From Streptomyces sp. Tu6071 (GTDB lineage Bacteria; Actinomycetota; Actinomycetes; Streptomycetales; Streptomycetaceae), in assembly GCF_000213055.1 (NCBI RefSeq), contig NZ_CM001165.1, positions 2,835,445 to 2,899,444 on the forward strand: a stretch of 64,000 bases of DNA, written 5' to 3'. Below, piece after piece: positions 6,766-11,254 of the stretch (position 1 is its first letter; every line of letters begins with the position of its first letter). Under the pieces are notes generated by a model. The model did no database searches. It saw nothing but the letters and a program-made list of their open reading frames with translations, and was not told where the DNA came from. The translations under genes were made by a program, and so were the position numbers.

Positions 6766-7816
6766 TCAGAGGAGCGGCGGGCGCCCCAGCCGCGTCATGC
6801 GCCACACCGTGCGCCACCGCATCGGCCGCCGCGGGCCGCACGGCGTGCGCACGCCCTCCGCGAAGCCGCCCCACCAGGCGCGCAGGGCGGAGGGCGAGGG
6901 AGTGCGGAGGAGGGTGAGGAGAGCCCAGGCGCCGAGGTAGACGGGGACGAGCGGGGCGGGGAGGCGGCGGTGGGCGAGCCAGACGCGGTTGCGGGCGGTG
7001 TGTCGGTAGTGGCCGGGGTGGCGGGCCGGGGACGTGCGGGGGTGCTGGAGGACGAGGCCGGGCTCGTAGCGGATCGTCCAGCCGTCGTCGAGGGCGCGCC
7101 AGGCGAGGTCGGATTCCTCGTGGCCGAAAAAGAATTCGGCGGGCCACAGCCCGATCCGCCGCAACATCGGCATCGACAACGCGCGCCCGCCCCCGAGGAA
7201 CGCGGTCACCTCACCACCCCGCATCGGGTCCCCCGCCCGCAACCGCGGCACTTGGGCCCTGTCGTCACATTCCCGTCTGCCGCGCGACGCCATGCACGCA
7301 CTCTCGCCGCACCGCCCCCAGACCCAAGTACGTCCAGTACGAGGGCCTGGGGGCGGCGCGCCGAGAGCACGCACCTGACGCCGCACGGCCGCCCTCCGGG
7401 CGACGACGGGAATGTGACGACAGGGCCCAGCGCCTCTCCGTGTGCCCGTGCTCGTCCGCGACCCGGAAACCGACGATCCCGAGCCCGGGGTCCTCGGCGA
7501 AGAGCCGCCGGACCTGCCGGAACACGTCGTCGGCGACAAGCAGTCCGTCGTCGTCCAGTTCCACGACGACATCGACGTCACCGGAGTCGCGCAACAGCTC
7601 CAGCGCCACGTTCCGCCCGCCGGGACACCCGAGGTTCTCCGCGAGCGGCACCTTCGTGGCCTCGGTGACGACGTCGCCGAGCGGCGTCGCGTTCCCGACG
7701 AGCACGACCCGCGCGGCGGGCACATCCTGCCGCGCCACCGAGGCGAGCAGCGCGTCCAGCTCCCCCGGCCGCGTCCCCATCGTCACGACGACCACACCGA
7801 TACGAGGCAGGGGCAT
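6766..7816 (-). pseudogene. Family 2 glycosyltransferase, interrupted by a MITE-like insertion
   Basis: The N-terminal part starts at 7816 (ATG after GGGAGA) and reads a GT2 nucleotide-binding start (RIGVVVVTMGTRPGELDALL), ELDDDG and VADEHGHTERRW. The reading frame then enters a foreign 175-bp segment and stops at 7265. The C-terminal part, in another frame, resumes at VPRLRAGDPMRGGEVTAFLGGG, includes the typical FFFGHEESDLAWRALDDGW motif and membrane-proximal tail, and stops at 6766. Removing a net 169 bp (one copy of the GGGCCC junction kept) joins the halves in one frame as ERRW-AQ-VPRLRAGDP. Both halves keep normal codon bias, so disruption looks recent. The intact enzyme would have added a sugar to a cell-surface acceptor. 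Confidence 0.85.
7254..7428. mobile_element. MITE-like non-autonomous element with 24-bp terminal inverted repeats
   Basis: The 175-bp segment is bounded by perfect 24-bp inverted repeats (7254-7277 and 7405-7428) beginning GGGCCCTGTCGTCACATTC. Inside, further arms pair (for example CCGCCCCCAG at 7312-7321 with CTGGGGGCGG at 7347-7356), so nearly the whole element can fold into one imperfect hairpin around GTACGTCCAGTAC. It has no room for a transposase. Because GGGCCC is itself a palindrome, the target duplication cannot be delimited, but it is at most 6 bp. It must have been moved by a transposase encoded elsewhere. Confidence 0.8.
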
Positions 7817-9829: not shown

Positions 9830-11254
9830 ATGGCCGCCGAAGCGGCGGGGGGTGCCGGTCGCGTACCGGTGCCCCCCGCGTCCCCCAGCGGGGGCGTGCC
9901 CGCGCCCCGTACGTCGCCCGAGTCCCCGAAGTCCTCGCGGGACATGGGCCCCGCCTCCGTCACCCGTACCCGCCGTTCCCTCGCGGTCCTCTTCCTGCTC
10001 CCCGCGCTCGTGCTGCTCGGCGCGCTCGTCCTCTACCCGATCGTGTGGAACGTCGTACGGAGTCTCTTCGACTCCTCCGGGGACGGCTTCGTCGGCCTCG
10101 GGAACTACCGCGAGATGTTCTCGGACCCGAACATCCGGACGGCGATCAAGAACAACGCGATCTGGCTCGTCGTGGCGCCGACCGTCGCGACGGCGCTCGG
10201 GCTCGTGCTCGCCGTCCTCACCGAACGCATCAAGTGGGGCACGGCGTTCAAGCTGCTCGTGTTCATGCCGATGGCGATCTCGATGCTCGCCTCGGGGATC
10301 ATCTTCCGGCTCGTGTACGAGCAGGACCCCGACCGGGGCGTCGCGAACGCGGTCGCCGTGACCGTGCACGACACGTTCGCGGAGTCCTCCGCCTTCCCCA
10401 AGGCGCACCCGCGCCCGCGCTCGGCGCTGGAGGCCGCCAAGGGCGGCGCGTTCCTGACCAGGGAGCCGGTACGGAGCGGAACGACCGTTCTCCTCCCCCT
10501 CGTCGGTGTCGCCCCCGACGTCATGCCCGACAGCGCGCGGCCCGCCGCCGCACCCGCCGCGCCCGGCAAGGACGGCGGGATCGCGGGCACGGTGTGGCAG
10601 GACTTCACGAAGGGCGGCGGCGGCACGCTCGACAAGGTCGACCCGAAGGAACTCGGCTACCCGGGGATGCGGATCGAGGCCGTGAAGGACGGCGAGGTCG
10701 TCGCCTCGGCGAAGGCAGGCGCCGACGGCCGCTTCACACTCCCCGCGAAGGCGGACGGCGCCCGGCTCCGCCTCCCCGCCGACAACTTCCGCGAGCCGTA
10801 CGGCGGCATCGACTGGCTCGGGCCCTCGCTCGTCACGTGGTCGGTCATCGGCGCGTACGTGTGGATGTGGGCCGGGTTCGCGATGGTCCTCATCGGCGCG
10901 GGACTCGCGGGCCTGCCGCGCGAACTCCTCGAAGCGGCACGGGTCGACGGGGCCGGGGAGTGGCAGGTCTTCCGCCGCGTCACGGTGCCGCTGCTCGCGC
11001 CCGTGCTCGGCGTCGTGCTCGTCACGCTCATGATCAACGTCCTGAAGATCTTCGACCTCGTCTACGTGATCCCGCCGGGCTCCGCGCGGGACGACGCGAA
11101 CGTCCTGGCCGTCGAGCTGTACAACACGGCCTTCGTGGACGGGGACGCGGGCGTCGCGAGCGCCATCTCGATCTTCCTGTTCATCCTGGTGGTGCCGGTG
11201 ATGCTGCTCAACATCCGCAGGCTGCGCAGGGAACGCAAGGAGGAACGCCGATGA
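9830..11254 (+). CDS. Sugar ABC transporter permease with inserted extracytoplasmic domain
   Basis: A 474-residue MalF-type permease. A membrane segment at about 48-70 and others around 110-160 are followed, at about residues 210-325, by a large hydrophilic insert. It holds a beta-sandwich-like segment (GGIAGTVWQDF...YPGMRIEAVKDGEVVASAKAGADGRFTLPA) resembling carboxypeptidase-regulatory/SdrD-B-type folds. The core then resumes with the EAA loop LLEAARVDGAGEWQVFRRVTVPLL near 365-385, which contacts the ATPase. Ordinary permeases of this family are about 300 residues; the excess is this insert. The start follows the lipoprotein stop by 4 nt, and an internal ATG at about 9943 is an alternative. 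The end overlaps the next gene (ATGA). Confidence 0.88.
   Translation: MAAEAAGGAGRVPVPPASPSGGVPAPRTSPESPKSSRDMGPASVTRTRRSLAVLFLLPALVLLGALVLYPIVWNVVRSLFDSSGDGFVGLGNYREMFSDPNIRTAIKNNAIWLVVAPTVATALGLVLAVLTERIKWGTAFKLLVFMPMAISMLASGIIFRLVYEQDPDRGVANAVAVTVHDTFAESSAFPKAHPRPRSALEAAKGGAFLTREPVRSGTTVLLPLVGVAPDVMPDSARPAAAPAAPGKDGGIAGTVWQDFTKGGGGTLDKVDPKELGYPGMRIEAVKDGEVVASAKAGADGRFTLPAKADGARLRLPADNFREPYGGIDWLGPSLVTWSVIGAYVWMWAGFAMVLIGAGLAGLPRELLEAARVDGAGEWQVFRRVTVPLLAPVLGVVLVTLMINVLKIFDLVYVIPPGSARDDANVLAVELYNTAFVDGDAGVASAISIFLFILVVPVMLLNIRRLRRERKEERR

Follow-up and report, generated by a model that had tools for sequence, protein, structure and literature searches.

The interrupted gene and its insertion

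The window analysed here is a 64,000-nucleotide stretch of the Streptomyces sp. Tu6071 genome. It contains a GT2-type glycosyltransferase gene divided into two parts by a 173-bp element with the features of a MITE, namely terminal inverted repeats, small size and absence of a transposase ORF. The locus comprises the following features (positions are those of the window):

7430..7816, minus strand: 5' portion (129 codons) of the split GT2-type glycosyltransferase gene (open frame and homologue comparison; profile match 23.2 bits)
6766..7251, minus strand: 3' part of the same GT2-type gene in another frame, 161 aa (open frame and homologue comparison)
7255..7427, no strand given: MITE proper, GG...CC, 173 bp (edges, marked by slashes, from comparison with copies flanked C-TA/GG...CC/TA-G)
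7253..7277, plus strand: left terminal inverted repeat, including the dinucleotide TG (7253-7254; TA in most copies)
7405..7429, minus strand: right terminal inverted repeat, including the dinucleotide CA (7428-7429; TA in most copies)
7278..7389, minus strand: conserved structured core, 112 nt, RNA-like on the minus strand (113.5 bits with model R1, in which the window copy is included)
7328..7340, minus strand: apical hairpin GTACTGGACGTAC with tip GGA; some other copies have GTAGCGGAGCTAC
7390..7402, minus strand: small side hairpin CGCCCGGAGGGCG, located between core and end repeat when the minus strand is folded

We confirmed the hairpin as a real feature of the window. Its inverted arms (7253-7277 and 7405-7429) are 25 nt long with 100% complementarity; the original prediction had correctly called the repeats perfect but had given their length as 24 bp. 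Folded as single-stranded DNA, positions 7245-7440 reach -77.8 kcal/mol (z -9.7), a value that none of 200 shuffles equalled.

Both gene halves lie on the minus strand in different frames and the orthologs are uninterrupted, in agreement with the predicted insertion into a family 2 glycosyltransferase gene. Joined, the halves encode a protein that is matched in 56 of 61 genomes (weak matches counted), and the 68 near-full-length homologues among the matches listed, paralogs counted, are all without a stop. Its two nearest orthologs (G023, 79% identity; G021, 76%) are open throughout and lack the element; when aligned, the empty site reads ERR-W-VPRL in L061 and ERR-W-IPRL in L062, with one tryptophan codon between ERR and (V/I)PRL. 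This single codon implies a net insertion of 175 bp, that is, the 173-bp element plus 2 bp. Excision of a net 169 bp, originally thought to rejoin the halves exactly, does keep the frame but leaves two codons too many relative to the two nearest orthologs. Judged by its profile scores, the interrupted gene is a modest GT2 match: against the PF13641 (Glyco_tranf_2_3) cut-off of 27 bits, the 5' half in the window scored 23.2 (under) and the intact orthologs 28.1 and 33.8 (just over). Given this modest match, the suggestion that the element family reshapes envelope glycosylation was unsupported.

Copies, target site and candidate mover

Within its own genome, the element gave 12 BLAST matches with both strands counted, which we read as five two-ended elements, a one-ended element and lone ends. 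Identity to the window copy is 97% for the second copy and, across most of the length, 86% for a third; there are also relatives that are shorter or have a single end. The element had a match in 22 of 41 genomes searched (own included), several of which reach the core or a short stretch only, and when 121 genomes of the genus were searched for the end pattern with CTAG, 34 contained it. With its inverted ends, a second copy in its own genome and matches in others, the element is the multicopy hairpin MITE that had been predicted. Multiple copies with conserved ends were seen not only in these genomes but also in the draft genome G017 (99 end matches at two or fewer mismatches, mainly of two variants) and in a scan of named genomes, in which 80 of 91 stretches (L250-L340) were examined and which overlaps in part with the other genome set. 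Among the G017 copies examined, many were near-identical and many lay at contig ends, and two MITE variants have seemingly multiplied recently. Copies from named sources are almost all from Streptomyces. Among plasmids, 20 Streptomyces records and two Embleya records matched (22 in all); three of these were examined and showed no IS partner of the MITE. The element had no match in the phage sequences searched. Short forms of 62-82 bp also exist in which most of the core is missing, indicating that the core is unnecessary for mobility. The window element is a member of a MITE superfamily in Streptomyces and its kin, with IS5-like ends and a strand-favoured conserved hairpin core.

The 80 examined stretches yielded 60 two-ended elements, several of them from one genome. 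Most copies sit between two CTAGs. The left and right flanking dinucleotides were TA/TA in 39 elements, TA/TG in eight, CA/TG in four, CA/TA in four and TC/TC in one, with four single cases, and the two sides differed in 20 of the 60; the TC/TC element represents a direct duplication at a non-standard target. This distribution would fit insertion into CTAG with duplication of TA, although the TA/TA counts are limited evidence for duplication because CTAG is itself palindromic and the orthologs compared are those of the TG/CA window copy only. The window copy has TG on its left and CA on its right and hence no direct duplication, a pattern found in none of the 60 elements yet present in L093, L108, L109 and L128. 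If the tryptophan codon is taken as the old site, the right side of the window copy would be original and the left side would carry three changes; arm-to-arm copying plus one substitution would be the shortest account of TG/CA.

Read inward, CTAGG had changed to CCAGG on 20 sides of the 60 elements and in another way on two sides. The right repeat was mismatch-free in 50 of 60, the left being fixed by the search itself. The one-way change from CTAGG to CCAGG resembles a directional mutation or repair effect at CTAG. Copies often adjoin a TAG stop, but we rejected stop-codon targeting on the basis of 11 of 36 elements compared to 15 of 68 background CTAG sites (p = 0.35). Gene orientation was scored for 96 of 103 copies, partial matches and known duplicates having been excluded beforehand. 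Relative to the upstream gene there was no bias, with 42 copies in the same and 42 in the opposite orientation; the downstream gene had the same orientation in 30 cases and the opposite in 49 (p = 0.04, uncorrected), with 25 convergent and 10 divergent arrangements.

The best candidate mover we found, based on its ends, is an IS5-family element present in three identical copies in the same genome (two on C1, one on C2), each 898 bp including both CTAGs and with different outer flanks. It belongs to the IS5 family by NF033580 and DUF4096/DDE_Tnp_1 and encodes its transposase in two overlapping frames, and the identity of its three copies suggests recent activity. Its right end GGTTCTGTCGTCAAAT and left end GGCAGTGTCTTCAAAT agree with the MITE end GGCCCTGTCGTCACAT at 13 of 16 and 12 of 16 positions, respectively, a close similarity though not an identity. 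The ends had been expected to point to a transposase, as they do here, and to a full-length IS with the same ends; for the latter we found similar ends, and no IS with ends identical to the MITE occurred among the loci examined. The interiors of the MITE and of this IS are not similar beyond chance. We therefore rejected the MITE as a deletion derivative of the three-copy IS, the only one compared, as the ends alone match.

DUF4096 transposase genes were located in 12 chosen genomes, and 14 of the 77 loci examined among the matches listed had TAGG ends agreeing at 13 or more of 20 bases and lying 600-1500 bp apart. The own genome contains at least 12 DUF4096 matches. Its third MITE, L003, has a different end, which agrees at 14 of 16 positions with one end of the own-genome IS5 locus L177, whose second end was not found. 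Across the genus, end-pattern matches for which both ends were listed had MITE-sized spacings, with no full-length IS. Searches for DUF4096-type transposases returned L111 and L148 only from L001-L060 and L091-L172, and L250 and L276 only from L250-L329, both of these kilobases from the end match. At L148/L185, a MITE fragment lies beside another IS5. At L218 (G009), a related MITE abuts an IS5 end with a TAAGG junction common to both, as would result from insertion of the IS into the target site of the MITE; this IS5 has several apparently identical copies.

The structured core and its distribution

Folded as RNA, the whole element reaches -164.8 kcal/mol (z -18.4) on the minus strand compared with -130.7 kcal/mol (z -12.6) on the plus strand. 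The original prediction had treated the interior as a self-complementary non-coding segment, which is right as to the palindrome but overlooked a widespread, covarying hairpin. We aligned 25 cores from 39 representatives (alignment A1; 113 columns; less than 93% alike by matching-block ratio), leaving out 13 (nested hairpins or large gaps; L312 short and with N) and, by hand, L042 (degenerate arm). When the structure of the window copy was applied to these 25 cores, 96.3% of 1219 cells were paired and 19 of 49 pairs had changed on both sides. For all five measures, none of 500 shuffles was as high and slid controls were far lower, a comparison that gives no probability because even unstructured related sequences can outscore shuffles and because the window copy supplied the structure. 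With orientation set from the sequence, the non-Watson-Crick cells comprised 224 G.U, 13 A.C and 32 others. In nine of the 49 pairs G.U was the most frequent state, and A.C was so in no pair (p = 0.004 assuming independent pairs); variant states included 17 G.U types versus nine A.C types, a weaker excess (p = 0.17). A.C was absent from the four symmetrical positions that are unpaired in the structure. The polarity of the core is clear, but a single ancestor may account for much of it. Most invariant columns belong to the lower stem or the apical loop, with few in the variable upper stem. The 25 sequences and the strand folds reveal a conserved secondary structure, as in ERIC- or NEMIS-like elements. 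In many copies a second, smaller hairpin of ~30-45 bp (CTCCCCCA...GGGGGACCCCCA and variants) is nested in the core arms at a few recurring spots (L126, L138, L301, L328, L332, L337, L340 and others).

The core covariance model had matches in 29 of 61 genomes, including 25 of 37 from the genus (own included), four of 15 others from the order (two genera) and none of nine others from the class, and all of these are lower bounds because the search scored 62 candidates per genome under strict filters. One genome (G012) had 48 core matches, one being the opposite strand of another. We fetched 20 core members, many of them distant in sequence and in ends; for all 20 the model strand gave the more stable fold, with a margin of 2.6 to 36 kcal/mol, the strand having been assigned by the model itself. 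Rfam contained no family matching at threshold, and the sub-threshold matches were to microRNA models and one viral frameshift element only.

We then compared cores with their shells in 65 non-redundant elements out of 80 (84 were tried), using a matching-block ratio that gives slightly high identities; the 65-of-65 strand result of this comparison is partly circular, as the model assigned the strand. Cores were at least 90% alike in 195 pairs; in 11 of these, the terminal repeats resembled each other no more than shuffled repeats do (0.56 or less; 95% of the null at 0.57), for example L039 and L040 (core 0.96, shell 0.43). In the other 184 pairs the ends were more similar, and by their ends 56 of the 65 elements are linked into a single loose cluster. 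Replacement of the ends around a core is thus observed, though not as the rule.

Competing explanations and known systems

It is very probable that the window element is a non-autonomous DDE MITE moved in trans by an IS5 transposase, and that its interior is a strand-favoured, structurally conserved hairpin common to MITEs with different ends. This reading builds on what was observed: multiple copies with their ends and CTAG context, orthologs without interruption, an IS with similar ends, and covariation and strand polarity in the core. An IS5-family transposase (DUF4096 and DDE type) would recognize the ~20-bp ends in trans and move the element, which would usually enter CTAG and duplicate at least the central TA; in this Streptomyces, it would have landed in the GT2-type gene and split it. 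We infer that selection on a putative transcript maintains the core, as proposed for ERIC and NEMIS, rather than mutation of the palindrome.

Quasi-palindrome correction, that is, template switching between arms, is a mutational process that could keep the arms complementary without any selection on RNA or single-stranded DNA. It would yield two-sided changes like those in the core and inverted-symmetric end changes such as TG...CA in the window and those in L093, L108, L109 and L128. However, it should erase G.T wobbles, whereas G.U prevails in nine of 49 pairs and A.C in none, and invariant columns concentrate in the lower stem and apical loop; the wobble argument is weak among variant states (17 versus nine types, p = 0.17), and we regard this process as an unlikely explanation that retains some weight. 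Folded single DNA strands matter in IS200/IS605 ends and integron attC sites, and a constraint on such a strand instead of RNA would agree with the strand polarity, which fits both, and with the wobbles, since DNA also tolerates G.T better than A.C. We consider this improbable given that the element ends in inverted repeats of the DDE type, which lie mostly at CTAG as in IS5, and that G012 has no clear replication-arm bias (11 plus and 10 minus in the left half, nine plus and 17 minus in the right; 47 places, origin assumed central).

The transposase itself could be a different one, from another IS5 subgroup or since lost from the genome. The MITE end matches the IS end at 13 of 16 positions without being identical, and one end among the 12 or more DUF4096 matches in the genome resembles that of the sister MITE L003 (14 of 16), but the three-copy IS is the closest end match in the genome among the loci examined and its identical copies suggest recent activity, which makes another mover possible though doubtful. 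Long hairpins are expected in GC-rich genomes; nonetheless, an ordinary intergenic terminator-like palindrome or an assembly artefact is scarcely credible for an element with defined ends, multiple copies, uninterrupted orthologs and IS5 elements with similar ends.

IS5-family IS (DUF4096, NF033580) have the same type of ends (CTAG-GGnnnTGTC...) and CTAG flanks as the MITE, which differs from them in lacking a transposase ORF and any internal similarity to the IS compared. REP/BIME sequences with RAYT transposases are dispersed palindromes, as is the MITE, which is longer and has terminal inverted repeats of the DDE-element type. ERIC, NEMIS (Correia) and RUP, as described in three papers, are likewise small and palindromic, with TA ends and a predicted RNA stem-loop; NEMIS transcripts are cleaved by RNase III, ERIC has an orientation-dependent effect on mRNA stability, and RUP has ends in common with an IS and is linked to IS630-Spn1 (PMC2229807, PMC10969869, PMC2267715). 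The window MITE differs from these in being GC-rich, in its CTAG target and in having one core with several kinds of ends, and its ends are IS5-like (DUF4096) whereas RUP is tied to IS630-Spn1. The word 'Streptomyces' is absent from the main text of the three papers. From this likeness by description, we read the window family as one that may work like the ERIC, NEMIS and RUP stem-loop MITEs. A literature search over titles and starts of abstracts, with subscription journals mostly outside it, found no description of such a Streptomyces family among the matches listed, which is weak evidence of novelty.

A more tentative idea, which we hold to be possible rather than likely, is that the core functions in its own right as a mobile module of non-coding RNA or folded DNA, conserved throughout the genus and two neighbouring genera and passed between MITE shells served by different IS5-type transposases, with the RNA outliving any one transposon family. 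If the core is a real RNA, it would be a candidate found in 25 of 37 sampled genomes of the genus and unmatched in Rfam at threshold, and it would exemplify a conserved RNA carried on transposon ends of several kinds. Otherwise, these elements would still mark IS5 activity and offer a natural system for separating RNA selection from arm-to-arm copying in palindromes.

Elsewhere in the window (9830-11254), an ABC-transporter permease frame seems, by eye, to have ~140 extra residues between membrane segments.
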